From contig JAHFRV010000032.1 in assembly GCA_023266095.1 (NCBI GenBank), positions 1 through 36,410 on the forward strand: a stretch of DNA of 36,410 nucleotides, given 5' to 3'. Below are positions 12,023 through 31,791 of this stretch, one piece after another; the stretch's first letter is position 1, and every line of letters starts with the position of its first letter. Under the pieces are notes generated by a model. That model did no database searches, was not told the origin of the DNA, and was given only the letters and a program-made list of their open reading frames with translations. This stretch comes from Gammaproteobacteria bacterium (GTDB lineage: Bacteria > Pseudomonadota > Gammaproteobacteria > DRLM01). A program made the position numbers and the translations under genes.

Positions 12023-12102
12023 CGCCGCGGGTCGATGTCGACCGGCCGTGCCGCACGGTTGCCGCGCGATAGTGGAATAAAACGAGAATGGAAGCGGGGG
12101 GC

Positions 12103-14175
12103 ATGATTAGTCTCGGTAGTCTGAGTTACGGTAGTGCGATGCTGGCCTTCGCGGTGCTGTCGCTATTGCTGCTGACCAGCTGGCGCGGCCGCCTGCAAGG
12201 CGGTTTGTTAGTAGCGGCTGCCCTGGTCAGCCTCCTCTGGGCGGGAGTGATCGCCGCCTTGCAGCTAGGCATAGTCGCCTTGTTGCCCGCCGCCGGCGTG
12301 CTGGAAGTGCTGCGTGCGCTGTTATGGGCGATTTTTCTCTTGAAATTGCTCAACCCCAACCAGGGTTGGCGGGTCTTGCTGGCTGGGCGGGCCCGTTGGT
12401 GGACCCTTGGTTTGTCGGCGCTCTCGGCGCTGTTGCTGGCCTTGGTGCTGGTGCCTATCGTGGCCAACGAACCCCTGGTGGATGCCCTGGGGGTGGACGC
12501 GCGCATCCTCGGCCAAGTGATCATGGCGGTGGCGGGGTTGGTACTGGTCGAGCAGGTGTTCCGCAACACCCGGCCCGACAGCCGCTGGGCCATAAAATAC
12601 CTATGTTTTGGCATAGGTGGACTGCTCGCCTACGACTTCTTTTTTTATTCCGATGCGCTTTTGTTCAAGCGGCTCGACCTCGATTTGTGGGAGGCGCGCG
12701 GCTTGATCAACGCCCTGGTGGTGCCGCTCATCGCGGTGTCGGCGGCCCGCAATCCGGAGTGGTCGCTGGATGTGTTCGTGTCGCGGCGTATCGTATTCCA
12801 CAGTGCGGCGGTATTGGCGGCGGGTCTCTATTTGCTGGCGATGGCCGCCGGTGGCGTGTATCTCCGTCTTTACGGCGGCAGCTGGGGCAGTCTGGCGCAA
12901 GCGGCGTTTTTATTCGGCGCCGGCCTGGTCTTGATCGTGTTGATGTTTTCGGGGCAGATGCAGGCCCGCCTGCGGGTGTTTCTCAACAAGCATTTTTTCA
13001 ATTACCGCTACGATTACCGCGAGGAATGGTTACGCTTCATCGGTACTCTGTCGGCCGGCGAACCCGGCGTGCCCTTGCGGGAGCGGGCGATCGAGGCGGT
13101 GGCCAATATCATGGACAGTCCGGGTGGCGCCTTGTGGTGGCGCCGCGAACCGACTTATTTTGAAATGATCGCTCATTGGAATATGTCGGAGGTGGGCAAG
13201 GCCAACGAACCCGCCGACGGGCCTTTGGCCCGTTTTCTCACCGATCGTGAGTGGGTGATCGACCTCAGCGAACACGATAACAAACCCGAGATCTACGCCG
13301 ACCTGCCGTTGCCGGATTGGTTGCGGGACTTGGAGCGGGCGTGGCTGGTAGTGCCGCTCATCCATCATGAAGGCCTGTTCGGTTTCATCGTGCTGGCCCA
13401 ACCCCGCGCGCCGCGCAGCTGCAATTGGGAAGACAATGATCTGCTCAAAACCGCCGGCCGGCAGGTCGCCAATCACATCGCCCAGCTGGAAGCGGCCGAG
13501 GCGTTGGCCAATGCCCGCCAGTTCGAGGCATTCAATCGACTCTCGGCGTTCTTGATCCATGATCTCAAGAATGTGGTGGCGCAGTTGTCGCTGGTGGTGA
13601 GCAACGCCGCCAAACACCGGCACAACCCCGCCTTCGTCGACGATGCGTTTAAAACGGTGGAACACGCCACCGGCAAAATGCAGCGGATGTTGGCCCAGTT
13701 GCGTTCCGGTGCGGTTCCCGGCCGGCGCTTAGCCCGCGTCGATCTGATCAAATTATTGAGCGAGGTGGTGAGCGCCCGTTCCATCGATCAACCGGTGCCT
13801 GTGTTAAAGTTTGCCGAAGCTGTTTTGGTCGTCACCGCGGAGCGGGAACGTTTGGCCGATGTGCTGGGACATGTGGTCCAAAACGCTCAAGAGGCGACTC
13901 CACCGGCCGGCAAGGTTGAAATCACCTTACAGCGACACGCCGAGGCGGCCGTTATAGAAGTGGTGGATAGCGGGTGCGGAATGGACGCGGATTTTATCCG
14001 CGACCGCCTGTTCAGGCCCTTCGATTCCACCAAGGGAAGGGCGGGTATGGGTATCGGTGCTTACGAGACCCGCGAATTTGTGCGCGAGATGGGTGGACAA
14101 TTGGATGTGGAAAGTCAGCCCGGGAAAGGCACGCTATTTCGCATCCAACTTCCCTTGGACCGCGAAGACGGCTAA
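12103..14175 (+). CDS. prsK: PEP-CTERM system membrane histidine kinase PrsK
   Basis: PrsK is the sensor kinase of the two-component pair found with exosortase/PEP-CTERM systems. From ATG 12103 it has 690 residues; ATG 12088 would add five. The first ~290 residues hold about eight or more hydrophobic helices. A GAF-like domain follows (from ~residue 310, with LVVPLIHHEGLFGFIVLAQP). The phosphoacceptor is His486 in LIHDLKNVVAQLS, a HDxKN box. The ATPase domain shows Asn594 (VVQNAQEAT), the G1 box at Asp622 (DSGCGM), an F-box (RLFRPFDSTK) and the G2 box GMGIGAYETREFV. All kinase motifs are intact. prsR begins about 45 bp later, so the two form an operon. The signal sensed is unknown. Confidence 0.95.
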   Translation: MISLGSLSYGSAMLAFAVLSLLLLTSWRGRLQGGLLVAAALVSLLWAGVIAALQLGIVALLPAAGVLEVLRALLWAIFLLKLLNPNQGWRVLLAGRARWWTLGLSALSALLLALVLVPIVANEPLVDALGVDARILGQVIMAVAGLVLVEQVFRNTRPDSRWAIKYLCFGIGGLLAYDFFFYSDALLFKRLDLDLWEARGLINALVVPLIAVSAARNPEWSLDVFVSRRIVFHSAAVLAAGLYLLAMAAGGVYLRLYGGSWGSLAQAAFLFGAGLVLIVLMFSGQMQARLRVFLNKHFFNYRYDYREEWLRFIGTLSAGEPGVPLRERAIEAVANIMDSPGGALWWRREPTYFEMIAHWNMSEVGKANEPADGPLARFLTDREWVIDLSEHDNKPEIYADLPLPDWLRDLERAWLVVPLIHHEGLFGFIVLAQPRAPRSCNWEDNDLLKTAGRQVANHIAQLEAAEALANARQFEAFNRLSAFLIHDLKNVVAQLSLVVSNAAKHRHNPAFVDDAFKTVEHATGKMQRMLAQLRSGAVPGRRLARVDLIKLLSEVVSARSIDQPVPVLKFAEAVLVVTAERERLADVLGHVVQNAQEATPPAGKVEITLQRHAEAAVIEVVDSGCGMDADFIRDRLFRPFDSTKGRAGMGIGAYETREFVREMGGQLDVESQPGKGTLFRIQLPLDREDG

Positions 14176-14220
14176 GTGATGATCGGCGGTTGATTGACGA
14201 AGACCTTGAGGATGGCACTG

Positions 14221-15579
14221 TTGAGTGATAAACAAACGACCTTGTTGATCGTTGAAGATGACCCCGGTCTGCAGAGCCAATTGCGCTGGAGTTTCGAGGG
14301 CTTCAATGTAGTGGTGGCCGGTGATCGCCAAACGGCTTTGGCTGAACTTAAAAAGCATCAGCCGCCGGTGGTGACGCTGGATTTGGGTTTGCCGCCCGAC
14401 GCCGACGGCGCGAGCGAAGGTTTAGCCACCTTGGAACAGATATTGGGCACGGCGCCCGATACCCAGGTCATTGTCGTTTCCGGTAATGAGGACCGCGAAA
14501 ACGCAGTGCGTGCCGTCGGTCTCGGCGCCTACGATTTTTATCAGAAGCCCATCGACGCCGAGATCCTCCGTCTGATCGTCGAGCGCGCCCATCACGTCTA
14601 TGTACTGGAGCAGGAAAACCGGCGGCTGAGCGCCACCGCCAATTCGCCGCTGACGGGTTTGATCGCCAGCAGCCCGCAGATGTTGAAGGTCTGCCGCACC
14701 GTGGAAAAAGTGGCACCCACCGATGCCACGACCTTGTTGTTGGGCGAGAGCGGTACCGGCAAGGAAGTCATCGCCCGCGCTCTGCATGATATGAGTCCTC
14801 GCGCCAAAAACCGCTTCGTGGCCATCAACTGCGCGGCCATCCCCGACACCTTGCTGGAGAGCGAGCTGTTCGGCTACGAGAAGGGCGCCTTCACCGGGGC
14901 CGCCAAACAAACTCTCGGCAAGATCGAATACGCCAATGGCGGCACCCTGTTTCTGGACGAGGTGGGCGACATCCCCATGACGCTGCAGGTGAAGCTGCTG
15001 CGTTTTCTCCAGGAACGGATCATCGAACGGCTGGGTGGACGGCAGGAAATTCCGGTCGAGGTGCGGGTGGTGTGCGCCACTCATCAAGATTTGACCGCCC
15101 TGGTGAAGAGTGGCCAATTCCGCGAGGACTTGTACTACCGTATCAGCGAGATCACCATCCGCATCCCGCCATTGCGCGAGCGCGAGGGCGATGCCTTATT
15201 ATTGGCGCGGACTTTTCTCGATCGTTACAGCGAGCAACATCGCCGTAACCTGAAGGGGTTCGCTCACGATGCGGTAGCGGCTATCGAGGCCCACTCCTGG
15301 CCCGGCAACGTGCGCGAGCTCGAGAACAAAATGAAGCGGGCGGTCATCATGGCCGAGGGCACTCGGCTCACCGCCGAAGAATTGGAGTTGAGCGTGGCCG
15401 CGGACGCGGGAGAATTGAATCTCAATCTCCGCGAGGTGCGCGAGACGGCGGAACGCGCCACGGTGCAGCGGGCGTTGAGCCTCTTTCACGGCAATGTTTC
15501 CCAGGCGGCCGAAGCGCTCGGTGTGAGCCGGCCCACCATGTATGACCTGATGAATAAATATGGACTGAAAACCGCGTAA
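14221..15579 (+). CDS. prsR: PEP-CTERM system sigma-54-dependent response regulator PrsR
   Basis: PrsR is an NtrC-type activator of sigma-54 promoters. The receiver domain has the acidic pair in IVEDD, phosphoacceptor Asp54 (TLDLGLP) and Lys109 (YQKP). The AAA+ domain has Walker A at 175-181 (GESGTGK), the sigma-54-contact loop GAFTGA at 222-227, the Walker B GGTLFLDEVGDIP, and the arginine-finger region. SWPGNVRELEN follows, and a C-terminal Fis-type helix-turn-helix (QRALSLFHGNVSQAAEALGVSRPTMYDLM). I place the start at TTG 14221 (product MSDKQTTLLIVEDD, 452 residues) because GAGGA ends eight bases before it. The same GAGG abuts ATG 14212 with no spacing, which makes that start poor. Two sigma-54 promoter candidates near 27.7 and 28.2 kb are likely targets. 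Confidence 0.94.
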   Translation: MSDKQTTLLIVEDDPGLQSQLRWSFEGFNVVVAGDRQTALAELKKHQPPVVTLDLGLPPDADGASEGLATLEQILGTAPDTQVIVVSGNEDRENAVRAVGLGAYDFYQKPIDAEILRLIVERAHHVYVLEQENRRLSATANSPLTGLIASSPQMLKVCRTVEKVAPTDATTLLLGESGTGKEVIARALHDMSPRAKNRFVAINCAAIPDTLLESELFGYEKGAFTGAAKQTLGKIEYANGGTLFLDEVGDIPMTLQVKLLRFLQERIIERLGGRQEIPVEVRVVCATHQDLTALVKSGQFREDLYYRISEITIRIPPLREREGDALLLARTFLDRYSEQHRRNLKGFAHDAVAAIEAHSWPGNVRELENKMKRAVIMAEGTRLTAEELELSVAADAGELNLNLREVRETAERATVQRALSLFHGNVSQAAEALGVSRPTMYDLMNKYGLKTA

Positions 15580-15657: not shown

Positions 15658-18447
15658 ATGATCAAGCATACCCGCCTTTGGCGCACTCTCGTCGGCGTCA
15701 GTCTGGCTCTCGTTTATATAATCACGGCGCAGGCCGCCTCTGTCGATCAATATCTAAAAGACGCGAAGGCTTATCAGCAAAAAGGCGACCATCGGGCCGC
15801 GATCATCGAACTCAAAAACGCCTTGCAGCAAGAAGCCGGCAATCGGGAGGCCCGCCTGCTGATCGCTCAGAGTTATCTCAAATTGGGAGATGGCGCCAGC
15901 GCCGAAAAAGAATTGAAACGCGCCCGCGAGTTGGGTGCGACGCCGGATCAGTTATTGCCCTTGCTCGGCCAGTCTTACCTGCAACAACATAAATTCCAGC
16001 AAATATTGGATGAACTGAAGGCCGATAAAGCCGCGTCGTCCCAGTTGCAGGCTGCGGTATTGTCGGTGCAGGGCACGGCGCAGATGGCACTCGGCGACTT
16101 GGCTCAGGCCAAAGAAAAATTCAGCGGCGCGCTCAAGTTGGATCCCATGACGCAAGAAGCCTTGCTGGGCCAGGTGCGAGTGGCGCTGTTGCAGCAGAAC
16201 CGCGCCGAGGCTGAGCAACGGCTCGCCGAGGTGTTGAAAAAACTGCCTAAGGTCGCTGACAGTTGGCTGCTCAAAGGCGAGCTGCATCGGGTCAACGGCG
16301 AGGCCCAGCCGGCGATCGACGCCTATCAGCAAGCGCTGGCCCTTGATCCGGATAATCTGAACGCCCGCATCGGCCGGGCCATGATGCTAGTCATTCAGCA
16401 GAAGTATCCGGCGGCGGAACAGGATATCGTCGCGGTATTGCGGGTCGTTCCTAAACACCCTATTGCACTGTATTTACGAGGCGTGGCTGCTTTCCAGCAG
16501 GGTAAGGGCCCCGCCGCGAAAGAGGTGTTACAGCAAGTGCTGGCGGTGGCGCCCAATCATATGCCCAGCCATTTGTTGCTGGGGGCCATCCAGTACGGCT
16601 CGGGGGAATTGGAGTCGGCGGCCGAATCCTTGAAGCGTTTCGTCACCGCGACCCCCGAGCATGTGCCGGCCCGCAAGCTTTACGCGGCGGCGTTGCTCAA
16701 GCTCAAACAGGCGGACCGCGCCGTCGAGACCTTGGATGTCGTGGCTAAACAGACACCCGACGATCCGCAGTTGCTGGCGCTGCTGGGCAGCGCCTATATG
16801 CAAAAAGGCGATTTGACCAAAGGCGTGGAATACCTCGAGCGGGCCGCCGAGGTGGCGCCTGATACCGCAGCGATACGCACCCAGTTGGCCTTGGGTTATC
16901 TGGCGTCGGGCGACAGCTCCCATGCGGTCTCTCAGTTGGAGTCGGCGGTGGATTTGGGGCAAGGCTTGGTGCAAGCCGACATGCTGCTGGTCTTCACTCA
17001 TCTGCAGCGCCGTGAATACGACGAGGCCATCAAGGCGGCGAGTGCCCTGGCCAAAAAGACCCCCACCAGTCCCGTGCCGGTCAATATGATGGGTGTGGCC
17101 TACTTGGGCAAACAGGATGCTGCCTCGGCCCGTAAACAATTTGATCAAGCGCTGAAGCTCGATCCCGCCTTCAGCCCGGCTCATATGAACCTGGCGAAGA
17201 TCGACGAGGCGGCGGGTAAGATTCCCGATGCCAAAAAGCATTACCAGGCGATTTTGGCCAAAGACGACAAACATGTCGGCGCTATGTTGTCGCTGGCCCG
17301 TTTGGCCGAGCAAAGCGGTAATTCCCAAGATGCGCTCACCTGGCTGGAGAACGCGCGCAACAAGGTTCCCGACGCCATCGAGCCGAGTCTGGTGCTGGTG
17401 CAATATCATCTGCAACACGGTGCCGCGCCTAAGGCGATGAGCGCGGCGCGGGAGTTGAGCAATCGCTATCCCGATCATCCCGCCGTCATCGAGACGTTGG
17501 GTAAAGCGCAAATGGCCAACGGCGAGGCCAATAATGCCGTGGCCAGTTTCCGTAGGCTGGCGGATAAACATCCCAAGGCACCGCAATCCCATTATCTGCT
17601 GGCTTCGGCGCAGGCGCAGGCCGGCGATACCAAAGCGGCGTCCGCCAGTTTGAATAAATCACTGGAGTTACAGCCTAATTTTGTTCCAGCTTTGGTGGCT
17701 TTGGCCGGCATCAAGTCGGAAGCCGGACAAGCGAAAGAAGCGCTCGACGCGGCGAAGCGTATACAAAAACACTATCCCGATGCGTCGGCCGGTTATGAGG
17801 TGGAAGGTAATATTTATGTCAAGGATGGAAAATTCGCCGAAGCGGTGAAGGCCTATGAGTTGGCTTACCAGAAAGGCGCCTCCGGGCCACTGGCCGTGAA
17901 ACTTTATCAAGCGCGGCGCAGCCTCGGCGAGCCCAATCCCACCGAGCCGCTCACGCGCTGGTTAAAGACCAATCCCGATGATGCCGGTGTGACCATGACC
18001 TTGGCGATGGTCTATCAGAACGATAAGCGTGGCAAAGAGGCCATCCCCTATTACGAGCGCGTCCTGAAAAAACAACCGGACAACGTGGTGGTTCTCAATA
18101 ATCTGGCGTGGATCTATCACGAACAGGGCGACAAGCGCGCGGCGGATTATGCCGAACGCGCTTATCGTCTAAAACCAGAAGACGCCCGCGTCGCCGATAC
18201 CCTGGGTTGGTTGCTGATACAACGTGGCGGGGGTGATCTGGCGCGAGGGGTGACTGTATTGCAAGAAGCCGCGATGCGTGCGCCGCAGCTGGCCGATATT
18301 CGTTATCACTTGGCGGTGGGCTTGGAAAAATCGGGCCGTAAAGATGAGGCGCGCAAGGAATTGGAGCGTCTGTTGAAAGGCAAAGATGAGTTTATGGATA
18401 AGGAAAATGCTCGTGTCCTGCTTGAGCGATTACGGGCCGGTAAATAA
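15658..18447 (+). CDS. prsT: PrsT-like giant TPR protein, secreted (no lipobox)
   Basis: This 929-residue protein consists of an N-terminal signal sequence (hydrophobic stretch ending AQAA, residues ~8-24) and then tetratricopeptide repeats over nearly the whole length. Typical TPR lines are AIDAYQQALALDPDNLNARIGRAMM, ARKQFDQALKLDPAFSPAHMNLAKI and KEAIPYYERVLKKQPDNVVVLNNLAWIYHEQG. It matches the PrsT family of exosortase systems in size, start (YLKDAKAYQQKGDHRAAIIELKNAL) and position after prsK-prsR. PrsT proteins are usually lipoproteins, but here no cysteine follows the signal, so it would be a soluble periplasmic protein. It is paired with a true lipoprotein paralogue downstream. A scaffold role for polysaccharide or PEP-CTERM export is a family inference. 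Confidence 0.92.
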   Translation: MIKHTRLWRTLVGVSLALVYIITAQAASVDQYLKDAKAYQQKGDHRAAIIELKNALQQEAGNREARLLIAQSYLKLGDGASAEKELKRARELGATPDQLLPLLGQSYLQQHKFQQILDELKADKAASSQLQAAVLSVQGTAQMALGDLAQAKEKFSGALKLDPMTQEALLGQVRVALLQQNRAEAEQRLAEVLKKLPKVADSWLLKGELHRVNGEAQPAIDAYQQALALDPDNLNARIGRAMMLVIQQKYPAAEQDIVAVLRVVPKHPIALYLRGVAAFQQGKGPAAKEVLQQVLAVAPNHMPSHLLLGAIQYGSGELESAAESLKRFVTATPEHVPARKLYAAALLKLKQADRAVETLDVVAKQTPDDPQLLALLGSAYMQKGDLTKGVEYLERAAEVAPDTAAIRTQLALGYLASGDSSHAVSQLESAVDLGQGLVQADMLLVFTHLQRREYDEAIKAASALAKKTPTSPVPVNMMGVAYLGKQDAASARKQFDQALKLDPAFSPAHMNLAKIDEAAGKIPDAKKHYQAILAKDDKHVGAMLSLARLAEQSGNSQDALTWLENARNKVPDAIEPSLVLVQYHLQHGAAPKAMSAARELSNRYPDHPAVIETLGKAQMANGEANNAVASFRRLADKHPKAPQSHYLLASAQAQAGDTKAASASLNKSLELQPNFVPALVALAGIKSEAGQAKEALDAAKRIQKHYPDASAGYEVEGNIYVKDGKFAEAVKAYELAYQKGASGPLAVKLYQARRSLGEPNPTEPLTRWLKTNPDDAGVTMTLAMVYQNDKRGKEAIPYYERVLKKQPDNVVVLNNLAWIYHEQGDKRAADYAERAYRLKPEDARVADTLGWLLIQRGGGDLARGVTVLQEAAMRAPQLADIRYHLAVGLEKSGRKDEARKELERLLKGKDEFMDKENARVLLERLRAGK

Positions 18448-18539: not shown

Positions 18540-21356
18540 GTGAGTATCAAGAAGAGCGGACGTCTGCGTGCGGTAGTGGGTGGTCTTGCGTTGTTGATGG
18601 CCATGGCCACGCTGCAACTGACCGGTTGCGGAAAAAAAGAACTGAGCGACGCGGAGTATCTCAAGCGTGCCAAGGAGTATCAGGACGAAGGCAAGCTGCG
18701 AGCCGGCGTCATTGAATTAAAGAACGCCCTGCGGCAAAACCCGAATAACACCGAAGCGCGCTGGCTGTTGGGAAATTTCTACCTGGAGTTGGAGCAAGGT
18801 GCAGAGGCGGAAAAGGAACTGTTGCGCGCCAAGGAAATGGGTGTGGACTCCGCTGCGGTGGCCGTGCCGCTGGCCCGCTCGTGGCTGCTGCAAGGCGATA
18901 TGGCGCGGGTCTTGAAAGAAACGGATACGCTGAGCGTGACGCCCGGTGATGAGATGTGGATACACAACGTGCGTGGCCGCGCCTACCTGGCGCAAGGGGA
19001 ATTAGACAAGGCAGGGGTGGAGTTCGACCAAGCTTTGCGATTAAAGGCGGATTTCAGCGAGGCCCAACTCGGCCAGGCCCTGCTGGCTTTGGCGCGCGCG
19101 GATAATGCGGGTGGGCGTGCCTGGTTAGACAAAGTGCTCGCGGTGAATGACAAATCCGCCGAGGCGTGGAGCTTGTTGGGTGATGTGGAGCAATCCGCCG
19201 GTCAGGCCGAGGCCGCCGAAACCGCGTACGGCAAGGCCATTGAAGTCGATCCAGCAAATGATCGCCATTACTATAAGCGCGCATTGCAGCGCGTGACCAT
19301 GAAAAAACTGGACGCTGCCAAGGAAGACGTGGAGGCGATGCGTAATATCGCGCCGAAGCATCCGGCCGCGCTTTATTTGGACGGTTTGATAAGTTTTAAT
19401 TCTAAAAAGTACGCCGAGGCCCAGACCGCTTTCGAGCAGGCCTTACAGGTGGATCAAAACTTCATGCCAGCGGTGTATTTTTTGGGTGCGACTCATTTTT
19501 CCCAAGGCCATCTGGAACAAGCTGACCAGTATTTACGGCGGGTGGTAAATGCTTTTCCTAACGCCGTCGACGCGCGTTTGATGCTGGGTACTACCTTGTT
19601 GCGGCGAGGGGACGCGGCGGCTGCGGAGAGTATGATGAAGCCGGCGTTGAATGCTTTCCCCGACCATCCTCAAGCCCTCAGTTTGATGGGAGTGGCGACG
19701 GCCCGCCAAGGCAAAACCGACGAAAGCGTCATGTACGTACGTAAGCTGACTGCCTTGGACCCTGGGTCGGCGGCATCCCGCATGCAGTTGGGTATGAGTT
19801 TGATGATGGGCGGACAGCAAACGCAAGGTATCCAAGAGCTCAAAGCGGCCGTCGATCTCGATCCGGAGCTTCTCCAAGCGGATTTATTGATTGCACTGTC
19901 CTACTTGCAACAGCGAGATTTCCCCGCTGTATTGGAAACGGCGCAGCGCTGGCGAGCTAAAGATCCCAAAGATCCATTGCCGATCAACCTTGCCGGATTA
20001 GCCTATCTTGGCCAGAAGCAAAGCAGTAAGGCCCGCGAGACTTTCGTTGAAGCTTTGAAGCTGGCGCCGGGTGATCCTTCGGCCAGCTATAACTTGGCGG
20101 AGATGGCTATAGAAGACGGTAAACCGGAAGACGCGCGTAACTTTTATAAGGGTGTATTGAAGGCCCAGCCCGGTCATCTGCAAACCTTGCTCAAACTTGC
20201 CGATATGGAAGGTCATCTCGGGCGGGAGAAGGAATTTCTCGCTTGGCTGCAAGAGGCGCGGAAGTCCAACCCCGACGCATTGGAACCGCGTCTATTGCAG
20301 GCTCGCCACCAGTTGCAATTCGGTCAGGCTTCCGAGGCTCTGCGCTTGGTGCAGGAGGTCCGTGAGAAATATCCTAAACACGGTGATTTGCTGGCGGTAA
20401 CCGGCGAGGCGCAGCTGGCTTTGGATCAAAACAGCGAGGCCGTGGCCACCTTGAGTAACCTGGTCTCGACCCATCCGCGGGCCGCGCAATCCCACTATTT
20501 GCTCGCCAAGGCCTATGGGGCGACGGGTGACGTCGCGCGTGCGCGGGAGCAACTGAACGAAACGCTGAAACTCGACCCGAACCATGCCTTGGCTAAAATT
20601 GCCATGACCCGTTTGCTGGTGCTCGAGAAAAAGCCCGATCTAGCGGTGAAGCTGCTGGCGGAGCTGAAGAAGACCTATCCCAATCATCCCGAAGTACTGG
20701 CCCAGGAAGGCTGGGTGGCCATGAGCCGTGGACGGGCGGCAGAGGCGGTCACTGCGTACAAAGCGGCGCAGAAGCTCGCGCCCAATCATAAATGGGTTAT
20801 TTCGCTGGCCTTGGCCCAATGGCAGGCGAGTGATCAACAGGGTGGTTACGCCACTTTAGAAAGTTGGTTGAAACAATATCCCGATGATTGGCTGGTACGC
20901 TTTAATCTGGCCAATGGTTACCTGCTGGGCAAGCGCGACAAGGAAGCCCAAGCCGCATTGGAAAAGGTCATTGAGCAAGCCCCCGACTACGTGCCGGCCC
21001 TCAACAGCCTGGCCTGGGAATTGCGCAAAAGTGATTCCAACGAAGCGTGGACCTACGCCGAGCGCGCCCTTAAACTGATGCCGGAAAATCCGGCGGTGAT
21101 GGACACCGCGGGCATGGTGTTGCTGGAGCGGAAGGAGGACAAACGGGCGGCAGAGTTGTTGCAGCGTGCCGCCGAACTGGCGCCGCAGGACCCCGCCATT
21201 CAATATCACAGCGCCCTGGCCGCGGCGCGCAACGGCGATAACGCCCGGGCGAAGAAAACCTTGGAGACATTGCTGGCCAATAAAGCCCCCTTCCCTGAAA
21301 AAGGAGAAGCGGTGGCCTTGCTGAACGCCGTGAAGAAAGGGCAGGCCGGCAACTGA
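18540..21356 (+). CDS. prsT: PrsT-type TPR lipoprotein
   Basis: This 938-residue protein has an N-terminal hydrophobic segment ending in the lipobox LTGC with Cys30, so it is predicted to be a lipoprotein. Then TPR units fill the rest, for example AEYLKRAKEYQDEGKLRAGV, AETAYGKAIEVDPANDRH and AQAALEKVIEQAPDYVPALNSLAWEL. It is the better match to the lipoprotein PrsT family and is clearly a paralogue of the preceding gene, with a parallel start, similar length and the same repeat layout, pointing to an old tandem duplication. The start is GTG 18540; no ATG lies in frame nearby. It is followed 12 bp later by a glycosyltransferase, so the transcript may continue. The exact partner is unknown. Confidence 0.94.
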   Translation: MSIKKSGRLRAVVGGLALLMAMATLQLTGCGKKELSDAEYLKRAKEYQDEGKLRAGVIELKNALRQNPNNTEARWLLGNFYLELEQGAEAEKELLRAKEMGVDSAAVAVPLARSWLLQGDMARVLKETDTLSVTPGDEMWIHNVRGRAYLAQGELDKAGVEFDQALRLKADFSEAQLGQALLALARADNAGGRAWLDKVLAVNDKSAEAWSLLGDVEQSAGQAEAAETAYGKAIEVDPANDRHYYKRALQRVTMKKLDAAKEDVEAMRNIAPKHPAALYLDGLISFNSKKYAEAQTAFEQALQVDQNFMPAVYFLGATHFSQGHLEQADQYLRRVVNAFPNAVDARLMLGTTLLRRGDAAAAESMMKPALNAFPDHPQALSLMGVATARQGKTDESVMYVRKLTALDPGSAASRMQLGMSLMMGGQQTQGIQELKAAVDLDPELLQADLLIALSYLQQRDFPAVLETAQRWRAKDPKDPLPINLAGLAYLGQKQSSKARETFVEALKLAPGDPSASYNLAEMAIEDGKPEDARNFYKGVLKAQPGHLQTLLKLADMEGHLGREKEFLAWLQEARKSNPDALEPRLLQARHQLQFGQASEALRLVQEVREKYPKHGDLLAVTGEAQLALDQNSEAVATLSNLVSTHPRAAQSHYLLAKAYGATGDVARAREQLNETLKLDPNHALAKIAMTRLLVLEKKPDLAVKLLAELKKTYPNHPEVLAQEGWVAMSRGRAAEAVTAYKAAQKLAPNHKWVISLALAQWQASDQQGGYATLESWLKQYPDDWLVRFNLANGYLLGKRDKEAQAALEKVIEQAPDYVPALNSLAWELRKSDSNEAWTYAERALKLMPENPAVMDTAGMVLLERKEDKRAAELLQRAAELAPQDPAIQYHSALAAARNGDNARAKKTLETLLANKAPFPEKGEAVALLNAVKKGQAGN

Positions 21357-26622: not shown

Positions 26623-27582
26623 TCAGGCCACTTGACGGCGGCGACGGATACCGGCGGCACCCATGCCCAAGAGACCCATGCCCAACAGCGCCAAGCTGGT
26701 CGGCTCAGGCACGTTGAAGGCCATATTGGGGTCCACTTGCAGCATGATGGCTGGGCTGGTCAAACCGTTTACCGAACCCACCGGCACATTGGCTGAACCG
26801 GCGCCGCCGACAGTCGGAGCACCACCACCCGCAGCGCCCACAAAGAGGGCCGAAGGGTTGGTCTGATTGTAGGGGATGATCTGCGAGCTATTGAACAACA
26901 AGTCGACCACCAGTTGGGTGACATCGGTCTTGAAGAAATCAGGGTGGGCGAAAGCCACGCTGATATCAACGGCCGTGCCGCCGGAACCTACCAAAGAAGC
27001 GATACCAGGGTAGTTATTTGTGCCGAAAGCATCCATGGCGGATGTGATGATCGGTATTCCGCCCGGAGCCAGAATCTGGAAAGCGCCGCCATTGCCGACG
27101 ATGGAGCCGGAGAGGATCAGGGTGCCATCATTGTAACCCGTGCCCGACAAGGCATTGGACTTGGTGGCGCCCATGGTGCCGTCATACCACACTTCAAAGA
27201 AGTTACTGAAGATGGGGGAGCTGTCGAGACCAAAGTTCACGGTGTCCGGAGAAACCGGGGTCACGGTTTCACCATAACCGCCGACGAAGGTGATTTCGAA
27301 CGCCGTATTCAGACCGGTAGGCGCGCCCGCAGGATTGCCACCCGTGTCGGCAAAACCTTGGAGGGTCGCTTGAATATAGAGCTGACCTGAACCACCGGCA
27401 GGGGCGGGGTTGGGGAGAAGAATGGCATTGCCCGGTGCCCAGTCGAACGCGGTGACGGTGGTTGTACCATTGGCAACCGCAGTGCCGTCGGCGTCGAATG
27501 AGATAGGCGCAGTAGCGTTAGCCGTAACCGACAGCCCCATCATCGCCGCAAGGCAGCATCCTTGTAATAGTGTCTTTTTCAT
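26623..27582 (-). CDS. PEP-CTERM sorting-domain surface/secreted protein
   Basis: This 319-residue protein is exported and then handled by an exosortase. It begins with a signal peptide (MKKTLLQGCCLAAMMGLSVTANA). The last 29 residues are a textbook PEP-CTERM tail: VPEPTSLALLGMGLLG, a hydrophobic helix, then RRRRQ. Between them is a ~265-residue beta-rich, Gly/Asn-rich domain without cysteine, whose N-terminal part starts ISFDADG and contains FEITFVGGYGE, FEVWYDG and NALSGTGYNDGTLILSG. The same motifs recur in the large divergent gene at 28273. The start ATG 27582 is fixed by AGAGGAG at ideal spacing and by the signal peptide; open frame upstream is not coding. A near-perfect sigma-54 promoter lies about 80 bp upstream. 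It may resemble flocculation-linked PEP-CTERM proteins, but I cannot confirm that. Confidence 0.95.
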   Translation of the reverse strand: MKKTLLQGCCLAAMMGLSVTANATAPISFDADGTAVANGTTTVTAFDWAPGNAILLPNPAPAGGSGQLYIQATLQGFADTGGNPAGAPTGLNTAFEITFVGGYGETVTPVSPDTVNFGLDSSPIFSNFFEVWYDGTMGATKSNALSGTGYNDGTLILSGSIVGNGGAFQILAPGGIPIITSAMDAFGTNNYPGIASLVGSGGTAVDISVAFAHPDFFKTDVTQLVVDLLFNSSQIIPYNQTNPSALFVGAAGGGAPTVGGAGSANVPVGSVNGLTSPAIMLQVDPNMAFNVPEPTSLALLGMGLLGMGAAGIRRRRQVA

Positions 27583-27667
27583 TTTTTCACTCCTCTTTGT
27601 AAAGTCAAATTGTAAGTTAGCTGTTGGTTGGCAAGTTATAAACGCAATGCTTTGTACTGACATGTTT

Positions 27668-27683
27668 AGCATTCTGCGTGCCA
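27668..27683 (-). promoter_or_regulatory. Sigma-54 promoter of the PEP-CTERM gene
   Basis: Read on the minus strand: TGGCACGCAGAATGCT. This matches the consensus TGGCACG-N4-TTGCW in all but one base, with exactly ten bases between the GG and GC doublets. Transcription would start near 27658, leaving a leader of about 76 bases. PrsR, a sigma-54 activator, is coded in the same window. Confidence 0.85.
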
Positions 27684-28090
27684 TAATGTTTATATTTATT
27701 ACTATCAATGACTTAAATATTATAAAACGGTGATCTCGAAGTGTGCAAAGGCTTAATGTAAAGTATTTCGACAGATATTTTTCAGTACAACCAAATGATG
27801 GAGCCAAGCTTTATTTTCTTTATCCATGAAGACCAGCAACGCGTAGGGAGTCCTAATTTTGAGAATTTCATGAAAACGAGTCTTTTCAGTTGAATTAGAG
27901 GTTGCAAGCCCCTGTCGAGAAGTGCCAGCAAACAACTCCATTTAAGCCATCTTTATGTCCTGGCTCTAGAACTTATTTTCCCTATACAACTTCAATTTTC
28001 AGAATAATTGATTTCGTAATTCAAGGATAGACATTGAGATCTGTCTGCGACTATGTCGGGAATATTTACATTCATCGATTTTGACGCATC

Positions 28091-28101
28091 GGCAAATTGC
28101 C
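28091..28101 (+). promoter_or_regulatory. Candidate activator-binding palindrome
   Basis: GGCAA-A-TTGCC is a perfect 5-1-5 inverted repeat centred about 84 bases before the predicted sigma-54 start of the 28273 gene, the usual distance for an enhancer of an NtrC-type protein such as PrsR. The true PrsR site is not known to me, so this is a guess. Confidence 0.3.
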
Positions 28102-28153
28102 AGGGTGGGGTCAAAAAATTTAATTTTATTATTTATCATGGCTTAATTTTGGG

Positions 28154-28169
28154 GGGCCCGAAACTTGCC
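28154..28169 (+). promoter_or_regulatory. Sigma-54 promoter candidate of the giant surface-protein gene
   Basis: GGGCCCGAAACTTGCC carries the GG and GC doublets at the required ten-base distance and matches TGGCACG-N4-TTGCW at all core positions except the first T, the A and the last W. The start would be near 28180, with a ~93-base leader before ATG 28273. Confidence 0.65.
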
Positions 28170-28207
28170 TTCAAAACCAACAAATTTAAATTTCACCGTT
28201 AGTTTGT

Positions 28208-28227
28208 CGGTTATCGTTGGATAACCG
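28208..28227 (+). repeat. Perfect inverted repeat in the 28273 leader
   Basis: Arms CGGTTATC and GATAACCG enclose GTTG. It lies downstream of the predicted transcription start, so it would form a hairpin in the mRNA leader or be a repressor site. It is about 30 bases before the ribosome site AAGGAG. Confidence 0.6.
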
Positions 28228-28272
28228 GTTACTCTGTAAAAAAAATATCCCCGACTCAAGGAGAATTAACCC

Positions 28273-31200
28273 ATGTTTAATATCGCGAAGCTGAAGGGAT
28301 GGGCTTTGAGCGTATGCCTGTGCGGGATCGTGGTGGCCCCCGCGGCGTGGTCAGCCGACGTGATCCAATTCGATGCGGATGGCCCCGCGTCAGCCAATGC
28401 ACCAGCACAAGTAGTGACGTTTGACTGGGTGCCGTCCAGCAACGTGATTACGGCCGCGCCCGGCTCAATAACGCCGGCGTTTCCGTTGTTGCCGGGCCAG
28501 TCCAGGTCGGTACAGATGTTGAGCCATGGTGCTTTGAATGGTTTCGCCGACATTAATGGTAATCCAGCCGGCTCGCCGGCGGGGTTGAACACTAATTTCG
28601 AAATTACCTTTGTGGTGGGCTTTGGGGCCCGGGTGACCAATAATAACGGTACGCTGAGCTTCGGCCCTATCGATACTGATCCTCAATTCAAACAGTTCCT
28701 CGAAATATGGTATGACCAAGGGCCCTCGTTGCAGAGTAACGCGCTCAGTGGTTTGGGTTACGCGGGGGGAAGCACACTGATATTGCGAGCTCAGGTCGTT
28801 GATATCGGTCAGAGCCCGCTGCCCATTAATGGACCTCTGGTCTCCTTTGACCAATTTGGGGGCAATGATTTTCCCGGTGTGCAAACCCCCTTTGGTACCG
28901 GTGGCATGCAACTCACCGCGCGGGTAACTGAAGTCAACCCTGATTTCTTCGTGAACAACTCGCTGCCGGTGGGATCGACCACTCTGTTCTTCAACCAATC
29001 CCTGCAGAATTTGTTTGCGCAAACCAATCCGTCCAAGAGTTTTGTGCGCGGTTCGGTGACGGACGGCCATCCGACTTTTAACCCCGTGCTGGGCGCGATT
29101 AATGGTCAATCCGGGCCCGACTTCCAGCAACAAGTGGACGCCAACAACAGCTTCACCGCGCCGCTGTGCACGGGCCAGATCGGCAACTTCGTCTGGAACG
29201 ATCTTAATAATAACGGTCTGCAAGATCCGAGTGAGCCGGGTATCGATGGCGTGCAATTGGTCTTGCGTAATGCTGCTACCAATGCCTTGATCGCGACCAC
29301 CAACACGGCGGGCGGCGGGCTGTATCTGTTCCGCGGCCTGTGTGCGGGTGATTACAAAGTCACAGTGACCGAAAGCACCTTGCCTGCCGGTTATGGCCCT
29401 ACTGGAAGTTTAGCCGGGGATACCAATCTTGACAGCAACGGCAGCCCGGCCACGGTCAATCTGCCCAGCAACACTCAAGATTTGAGTATTGATTTCGGTT
29501 ACCGTCTGCCGCCGGTGAACGCCTCCTTGGGCGACTTCGTCTGGGAAGACACCAATGGCAACGGCATCCAAGATGCCAATGAGCCGGGTATCAACTCGGT
29601 GACTGTGCAACTTCTCAGTCCGGGCGCCAGCGGTTGCGGCACGGGCGATGAAAGCGTTCTTGGTACGGCCATAACAGGTGATAATCCGGCGACCCCAGCG
29701 ATTGAGCAGGGTTATTATTCGTTTGGCAATCTTACGCCCGGTCAATACTGTGTACAGATCCAGAAACCGTCAAATTACCAATGTACGCTGGCCAATCAAG
29801 GTGTAAATAACAACGTCGACAGCGACATGGTTGATCAAAACAACGGTTTCTGCCAAACCGTGGATGCCAGCCAGAATCCGATCGACTTGAGCGCGGGTGA
29901 GAACGATCCGAGTTGGGATGTGGGCCTGGTGCGTCCGGCCTCGATCGGTAACCGGGTGTGGAACGACCAGGACCGCAATGGTCAGCAAAATGGTACGGAA
30001 CCGGGTATAGATGGTGTCACGGTGGAGTTGTTCCAATGTGCGGGCACGCCGCCTGCGCCGGGAGCCGCGTCGATCGCCACGGTGGTGACCGCGGGCGGTG
30101 GTCTCTATAACTTCAGCGGGCTGGCACCGGGTTCGTATGCGGTGCGTTTCACCAATCCCAATGCCGCACGGGAATTCACCACGGCGGGTCCGACCGGGAG
30201 CAAAGACGCGACGGACAGCGATCCGGTGTCCTTTAACCCGACCGGCACGCAAGGCATGACGGAATGCTTCACGGTGGTGTCGGGCGAGAACGACGACAGC
30301 TGGGATGCGGGCCTGCGGGAAAAGGCGGGTGCCAAACTGGGTGACTTCGTATGGCATGACTTAAATGCCGACGGTGTCCAGCAGACCGGTGAGCCGGGTA
30401 TCGCCAACGTCACGGTTGCGCTGATGCGCTGCGATGCGGCGGGCAACAAGACCTTGACCGGGACGACCACCACCACCAACGGCAACGGCATCTATGCGTT
30501 CGACAACCTGCTGTCGGGTCGTTACGCGGTGAAGTTCACCAAACCGGCGGGCTATACCGAAGCCAGTCCGAAGGATGTGAATGACGGCAATCCCAATCCG
30601 GGTGAGCGGGACAGCGATGCGGACCTGGTGACCGGCGAGACGGCCTGTGTCGACTTGGCCGCCAATGCCACCATCTTGACCTTGGATGCGGGTTTCTATA
30701 AGAAGACCGCCAAGTTGGGTGACAAGGTGTGGGAAGACACCAATAACAACGGTCTCCAAGATACGGGTGAGCCGGGTGTCGTTAATGTCACGGTCAACCT
30801 GTTCCGGTGCACGGGTACACCGCCTACACCGGGGGCTGCGCCAATAGCCACCACTACCACGAATAGCAACGGCATCTATAGTTTCCCCAACCTGGCGCCG
30901 GGCAGCTATATGGTGGCCTTTGTGAATGGGGGTCGGGTTTTCACCATCAAAGACGCTGGTGCTAATGCCAATGACACTACTGATAGTGATGCCGATACGA
31001 CCACCGGCCGTACGGTCTGTATCACCTTGGTGTCTGGTAAGGAGGACTTGACCTGGGATGCGGGATTGCGTCCTGCTGGCACGCCGCCTAGCGTGACTCT
31101 GAAGAAGTATGTCTCCGTGAAAACGGATCCCACTACTGGTATGCGTATCTGGGAAGATGCGAACTTTATTACCGGTCCTGTGGTGAAGGTCTGTCCGACG

Positions 31201-31791
31201 CCCGGTATGGATGGGGATAAAGATAAAGACAAAGATAAAGACAAAGATAAAGACAGCGACAGTAGTAGCAAGCTCAGTGTGACGACCACGACTTCCGGTG
31301 GTTCGGACAAAGATAAGGACAAAGACAAGGACAAAGACAGCGATGGTGGTGGTAGCTGTGTGACCAGTGTGTTCTTCAAGTTCGAGGTCAAAAATACCAG
31401 TACTACTACAGCGCTGACCAGTCTGAATCTGACGGATATCTCGTCCAATCCGGCGGACAAGGTGAATGTCAGCAGCTGCGTGTGGCCCAGCTCCTTGGGT
31501 GCGGGACTAACCGCCAAATGCATAGTGGGTCCGGTGCCCGCCCTAGTCGGGCAACACACGGACATCGGCAAGATCACCGCGGTAGGTAACGGCACGACCG
31601 TCAGCGCGACGGATAAGGCCAACTATCTAGGGGAGATCTGTTCCTCCTGTGGCGGTGATAGCGACAAAGACAAGGATAAGGACAAAGACAAGGATAAGGA
31701 CAAAGATAGCGACACTAAGAGCTCCAGCACTACCAGCACGAGCACCAGCAGTGGCTCGTACTGGGGTAGCTTTACAACCTTGTTTAAATAA
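28273..31791 (+). CDS. Giant secreted protein: PEP-CTERM-like module, five SdrD-B-like repeats, Asp-Lys tracts
   Basis: This 1172-residue exported protein starts with a signal peptide (to about residue 27). Residues ~28-300 are homologous to the mature part of the divergent PEP-CTERM protein (FDADG, GLNTNFEITFV, FEIWYD, NALSGLGY). Five SdrD-B-like beta-sandwich repeats begin near residues 301, 416, 557, 687 and 813. Each has a G(N/D)xVWxDxNxNGxQ-xxEPGI line that resembles a calcium loop. From ~937 a DUF11-like domain (VTLKKYVSVK ... VFFKFEVKNTS ... SATDKANYLG) is interrupted by Asp-Lys tracts at 982-994 and 1012-1022, and a third tract lies at 1131-1145. The end is SYWGSFTTLFK, with no PEP-CTERM, LPXTG or other known anchor. 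AAGGAG precedes ATG 28273. A matrix or adhesin role is inferred. Confidence 0.93.
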   Translation: MFNIAKLKGWALSVCLCGIVVAPAAWSADVIQFDADGPASANAPAQVVTFDWVPSSNVITAAPGSITPAFPLLPGQSRSVQMLSHGALNGFADINGNPAGSPAGLNTNFEITFVVGFGARVTNNNGTLSFGPIDTDPQFKQFLEIWYDQGPSLQSNALSGLGYAGGSTLILRAQVVDIGQSPLPINGPLVSFDQFGGNDFPGVQTPFGTGGMQLTARVTEVNPDFFVNNSLPVGSTTLFFNQSLQNLFAQTNPSKSFVRGSVTDGHPTFNPVLGAINGQSGPDFQQQVDANNSFTAPLCTGQIGNFVWNDLNNNGLQDPSEPGIDGVQLVLRNAATNALIATTNTAGGGLYLFRGLCAGDYKVTVTESTLPAGYGPTGSLAGDTNLDSNGSPATVNLPSNTQDLSIDFGYRLPPVNASLGDFVWEDTNGNGIQDANEPGINSVTVQLLSPGASGCGTGDESVLGTAITGDNPATPAIEQGYYSFGNLTPGQYCVQIQKPSNYQCTLANQGVNNNVDSDMVDQNNGFCQTVDASQNPIDLSAGENDPSWDVGLVRPASIGNRVWNDQDRNGQQNGTEPGIDGVTVELFQCAGTPPAPGAASIATVVTAGGGLYNFSGLAPGSYAVRFTNPNAAREFTTAGPTGSKDATDSDPVSFNPTGTQGMTECFTVVSGENDDSWDAGLREKAGAKLGDFVWHDLNADGVQQTGEPGIANVTVALMRCDAAGNKTLTGTTTTTNGNGIYAFDNLLSGRYAVKFTKPAGYTEASPKDVNDGNPNPGERDSDADLVTGETACVDLAANATILTLDAGFYKKTAKLGDKVWEDTNNNGLQDTGEPGVVNVTVNLFRCTGTPPTPGAAPIATTTTNSNGIYSFPNLAPGSYMVAFVNGGRVFTIKDAGANANDTTDSDADTTTGRTVCITLVSGKEDLTWDAGLRPAGTPPSVTLKKYVSVKTDPTTGMRIWEDANFITGPVVKVCPTPGMDGDKDKDKDKDKDKDSDSSSKLSVTTTTSGGSDKDKDKDKDKDSDGGGSCVTSVFFKFEVKNTSTTTALTSLNLTDISSNPADKVNVSSCVWPSSLGAGLTAKCIVGPVPALVGQHTDIGKITAVGNGTTVSATDKANYLGEICSSCGGDSDKDKDKDKDKDKDKDSDTKSSSTTSTSTSSGSYWGSFTTLFK
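31216..31707 (+). repeat. Three short tracts of GAY-AAR codon repeats (Asp-Lys)
   Basis: Tracts at 31216-31254, 31306-31338 and 31663-31707 consist of alternating Asp (GAT/GAC) and Lys (AAA/AAG) codons, 13, 11 and 15 residues long, with Ser/Thr/Gly-rich spacers. The interval given spans all three. The near-perfect hexanucleotide repetition could slip during replication; changes in steps of six bases would keep the frame. Confidence 0.9.

Follow-up and report, generated by a model that had tools for sequence, protein, structure and literature searches.

Two divergent PrsR/sigma-54 units probably control a PEP-CTERM protein gene and a giant SdrD_B-repeat protein gene in a gammaproteobacterium

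The window analyzed here, that is, the whole stretch of 36,410 nucleotides of gammaproteobacterial DNA, contains between two divergent genes a gap (27583-28272) that very probably serves as their control region, with two divergent PrsR/sigma-54 units through which PrsK, by way of PrsR and RpoN, would act on both surface-protein genes. To the left lies the gene of a PepA-like PEP-CTERM protein of 319 aa (26623..27582, minus strand), and to the right that of a giant, predicted secreted protein of 1172 aa (28273..31791, plus strand). A sequence-only reading of this DNA had already placed a sigma-54 promoter before each gene, with PrsR as the activator, and the present analysis defines the units to which these promoters would belong.

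We then looked at the -24/-12 sites by themselves. The minus-strand site, TGGCACGCAGAATGCT (27683..27668), differs from the TGGCAC-N5-TTGCW consensus at one position and lies about 84-85 nt from the PEP-CTERM ATG at 27582, as the sequence-only reading had it (one base off consensus, 85 nt before the start). No other site on either strand of the 36 kb window comes within one mismatch of the consensus, and the chance of finding such a site in a gap of equal size and dinucleotide make-up is 0.0175. For the plus-strand site, GGGCCCGAAACTTGCC (28154..28169), placed earlier at about 104 bp before the giant gene, the position (about 102-103 nt from the ATG at 28273) and the ten-base GG-N10-GC spacing held, but the match itself is weak, with three mismatches; since chance alone would give about 2.5 sites of this quality in the gap, it is not evidence on its own. 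Taken alone, the candidate -24/-12 sites are convincing on the minus side only.

Decisive evidence for both predicted promoters comes from a 17-nt TGTC-N7-TTTACA box upstream of each, which the sequence-only reading did not include. The putative PrsR box of the PEP-CTERM gene, TGTCGAAATACTTTACA, is found at 27773..27757 on the minus strand, 73 nt before the T of the -24 element, and that of the giant gene, TGTCGGGAATATTTACA, at 28054..28070 on the plus strand, 83 nt before its -24 site. A pattern search returned only these two boxes in the window, both inside the gap. When the pattern was extended to a box with a GG-N10-GC site 55-85 nt further on, exactly two units were found in the window, again both in the gap. 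The organism's own genome (3.3 Mb) holds five and a set of six family genomes 27, while the reversed pattern, used as control, gave none in either genome set; these genome-wide counts rest on pattern searches. Moreover, both units were scored with a composite weight matrix derived from 41 others, against a null of 200 first-order resamplings per gap. The PEP-CTERM-side unit scored 38.6 (null maximum 16.4) and the giant-side unit 34.1 (null maximum 13.9), so that with the boxes included both promoters stand far above chance and the claim of two divergent sigma-54 promoters is confirmed. A single enhancer serving both promoters is not favored, because each has its own box in matching orientation, the two being approximately 280 bp apart.

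This layout is the one described by Haft et al. (2006; PMC1569441) for PEP-CTERM genes of proteobacteria, where a motif 1 of 17 nt with TTTACA at its end is separated by 62.8 +/- 10.6 nt from a downstream sigma-54 motif 2 and the start codon comes about 71 nt later; the authors proposed PrsR as the protein binding motif 1. In the window, the 17-nt box ends in TTTACA on both sides, the -24(GG)/-12(GC) element follows after 73 and 83 nt (published range 32-92 nt), and the start codons, 84 and 102 nt past the promoter motif, both lie within the published 23-221 nt (mean 71). The target on the left is a PEP-CTERM protein; the giant on the right has no PEP-CTERM match, and Haft et al. likewise noted a few sites preceding genes other than PEP-CTERM ones (PMC1569441).

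The left protein carries a signal peptide and a VPEP...RRRR sorting tail (PF07589; TIGR02595 27.1 bits, cut-off 16). It is called only PepA-like here because its score against the floc_PepA family (NF033554) is 72.6 bits, under the cut-off of 80. Its predicted structure, mostly of low confidence (mean pLDDT 54), would have beta strands in its core, and a fold search of the PDB with this model gave no match at E<=0.001. The giant has a signal peptide, an N-domain, five SdrD_B repeats (PF17210, 453 bits over five stretches) and a DK-rich C-terminus, and a family and domain profile search detected no PEP-CTERM in its 1172 aa. The N-domain of the giant is homologous to the PepA-like neighbor (43% identity, E 4e-42), and one switch therefore appears to command two proteins sharing an N-domain, one having the predicted sorting tail and the other a repeat stalk; both may be located at the surface or in the matrix. 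A first N-domain alignment was too diverse for a contig scan, and an alignment of giants only, scanned against the genome contigs, matched only two loci of the sister MAG. As for their C-termini, giant SdrD_B proteins were read at the window (28273-31791) and at loci L143, L144 and L141, and fall into two types: DK-rich and ending in GSYWGSF(S/T)TLFK (the window giant and G001:C53), or TPGYWKNH...NGLLCAPHRD (G000:C34 and G001:C63).

Conservation of the units was examined in the sister MAG (G001), whose gene order is the same: a GMC-type oxidoreductase, an SDR, two acyltransferase-type genes, the PepA-like gene (minus strand), the giant gene (plus strand; 1379 aa at this syntenic locus) and a spermidine-synthase-like gene. 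The gap itself has diverged, yet the pepA-side box is identical to that of the window at 18 of 18 positions, and the promoter, TGGCACGCGGCATGCT, keeps the same position and the same 73-nt spacer. The giant side of G001 retains CGTCGATTATTTTAACA and TGGACTGGAAAATGCT, 85 nt apart, in a weaker unit (score 17.8, null maximum 13.7) whose box has TTTAACA. This weakness, together with the three mismatches of the window's giant-side -24/-12 site and the number of such sites expected by chance, is what speaks for the strongest alternative, namely that only the PEP-CTERM side works, the giant-side site being decayed or fortuitous and the giant transcribed otherwise. We consider this unlikely, as the same site has a full PrsR box 83 nt upstream and a composite score well beyond its null. 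In addition, the gene of a second, paralogous giant of the own genome (G000:C34) retains the box TGTCGGGAATGTTTACA and the -24/-12 site GGGCCTGAAACTTGCG in the same register while the rest of its upstream region has diverged. That GGGCCYGAAACTTGC and the box persist between diverged flanks argues most strongly for use of the weak-looking plus-strand site. The giant paralogue G001:C63 is likewise preceded by a box and promoter unit.

The candidate regulators of both units are encoded on the same contig, 12 kb from the gap: the histidine kinase gene prsK (12088..14175, plus strand; TIGR02916 858 bits, cut-off 300) and the gene of the NtrC-type response regulator PrsR (14194..15579, plus strand; TIGR02915 741 bits, cut-off 502.6). 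PrsR is composed of a receiver, an AAA+ sigma-54 interaction domain (PF00158) and a Fis-type HTH (PF02954), with Walker A GESGTGKE at residues 184-191 and GAFTGA at residues 231-236, where the loop announced by the sequence-only reading was indeed found. Two complete prsT genes follow in tandem (15658-18447 and 18540-21356, both TIGR02917 >820 bits). As the own genome encodes many NtrC-type activators (29 TIGR02915-type matches, partial and receiver-only ones included), real units could in principle be used by another sigma-54 activator of the same cell. This seems improbable: PrsR is the sole protein of the genome above the PrsR cut-off, prsK and prsR lie 12 kb from the units on their contig, and PrsR and this DNA motif share the same phylogenetic profile (Haft et al. 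2006, PMC1569441). In another genome, G003 (L075, G003:C136), PrsR boxes are present, yet no protein exceeds the PrsR cut-off, the best being a partial match of 418 bits.

Regarding the sigma factor, rpoN was found in all four family genomes searched but not in the own draft assembly (96% complete). The sister-genome order, read from translations, is lptA-lptB-rpoN-hpf-ptsN-hprK; lptB also has no match above cut-off in the own draft assembly, and the DNA of the sister-genome rpoN locus has no real counterpart there. LptB is essential in Gram-negative bacteria, and the rpoN locus is therefore most probably missing from the draft and not from the organism. We thus rejected a true loss of rpoN as the likely reading, because its neighbor lptB is lacking as well, and a single assembly gap is the most probable, if not proven, explanation. 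Transcription of both genes from ordinary sigma-70 promoters, with the sigma-54-like sites incidental, is the least probable alternative. One TGCACA-17-TATAAT match on the minus strand (27747..27719) speaks for it. Against it, two sigma-70-like sites were found in the gap where 2.1 are expected by chance, neither of them lies ahead of the giant gene on the plus strand, and the sigma-54 units are conserved in the sister MAG and the paralogue.

Overall, the circuit first proposed, from PrsK to PrsR to two surface proteins, is supported by equivalog-level PrsK and PrsR, by boxes at a plausible distance and by conservation at the sister locus and at C34. In this circuit the gap would hold two independent, inverted units. 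PrsK would activate PrsR, and phosphorylated PrsR would bind the 17-nt box of each unit and loop to the RpoN-RNA polymerase waiting at the -24/-12 site approximately 7-8 helical turns downstream, where its GAFTGA loop would drive open-complex formation. The PepA-like protein (leftwards) and the giant (rightwards) would thereby be switched on together. PrsR binding, RpoN dependence and co-expression are what we infer from the arrangement of the DNA.

The distance between box and promoter was further studied by surveying TGTC-N7-TTTACA-N55..85-TGGC-N8-TGC in 369 Gammaproteobacteria genomes, with a second search for N84..114. The strict unit (N55..85) was present in 97 of the 369 genomes, and the reversed control occurred once. 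Among the matches listed, spacers cluster at 61-65 (peak 63), 72-76 (peak 74), 85-87 (peak 85) and 95-97 nt; as the N55..85 spacers come from the first 150 matches listed and N84..114 was searched separately, the cluster sizes are not directly comparable. Circular concentration near an 11-nt period was 0.72 among the matches listed (<=0.31 with half-turn jitter), and 0.65 (at most 0.40 jittered) with one unit per genome in 66 genomes. Five matches were off-phase; the three loci read among them (57, 68 and 69 nt) all have no PEP-CTERM gene following, and these matches look like chance. In the own genome, where offsets of 55-111 were scanned, all eight boxes with a good -24/-12 site fall within a cluster or 1-2 nt off one. 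The window spacers fit this ruler approximately, 73 nt matching the second step and 83 nt being 2 nt short of the third. One-face looping is the usual explanation with enhancer-bound sigma-54 activators, and under the helical ruler PrsR would have to reach the RpoN polymerase across a short DNA loop from one face only. No report of such looping for PrsR was found in the openly available papers searched.

Beyond the window, other units of the own genome precede PEP-CTERM genes (C76, C103), the second giant (C34) and a DUF5658 membrane protein gene (C63). About half of the readable PEP-CTERM genes of this genome have no recognizable unit. The only own-genome protein over the floc_PepA cut-off (141.3 bits against 80), at G000:C95:20397-21218 (L032), has no recognizable PrsR/sigma-54 unit before its predicted start. 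The DUF5658 protein (approximately 160 aa) would be an unexpected non-PEP-CTERM member of the PrsR regulon, its PrsR box and sigma-54 site being conserved in four genomes (G000:C63:24775-24869, L083; also L068, L073 and L081). It is probable that PrsR follows a ruler in which the box is set off from the -24 element in 11-bp steps (63, 74, 85 or 96 nt) and hardly ever at distances between them, and that its regulon reaches both this membrane protein and giant SdrD_B-repeat proteins sharing the PepA-like domain.

In kind, the circuit is known, as it was predicted in 2006 (PMC1569441) and the rpoN dependence of a pepA was measured in Aquincola (PMC9850573). With the system of Haft et al., the window shares the TTTACA-ending 17-nt box, spacer, -24/-12 site, start codon, PrsK-PrsR and a long intergenic region ahead of the PEP-CTERM target; it differs in its two back-to-back units, the second of which would drive a giant without PEP-CTERM, and in spacers that fall on steps two and three of the ruler and not at the commonest value of 63. 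In Aquincola tertiaricarbonis RN12, the start of pepA was mapped to TGGCAC/CTGCTT, with rpoN1-dependent expression and a predicted enhancer upstream (PMC9850573). The window resembles it in its TGGCAC/-12 promoter shortly before a PEP-CTERM gene, but the Aquincola pepA adjoins prsT, no divergent giant was described there, and the window protein stays below the PepA cut-off. In Zoogloea resiniphila, as cited in PMC9012009, PrsK-PrsR and RpoN control PepA, and prsK or prsR mutants are non-flocculating; regulators and target class are the same as here, established by experiment in that organism and read from DNA in ours. What appears to be new is the back-to-back pair with a giant SdrD_B target that lacks PEP-CTERM but shares its neighbor's N-domain, as well as the DUF5658 element in four genomes and the helical ruler of box-promoter spacers.

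These results turn a promoter guess made by eye into a defined regulatory unit. They suggest that PrsKR, the switch associated with exosortase, can order two products together: a sorted PEP-CTERM protein, and a large repeat protein without PEP-CTERM that is built on the same N-domain. Moreover, the helical register offers a search rule for PrsR targets that is sharper than the mean spacer of Haft et al. (62.8 +/- 10.6 nt), and could find such targets, non-PEP-CTERM ones included, in biofilm and floc formers.
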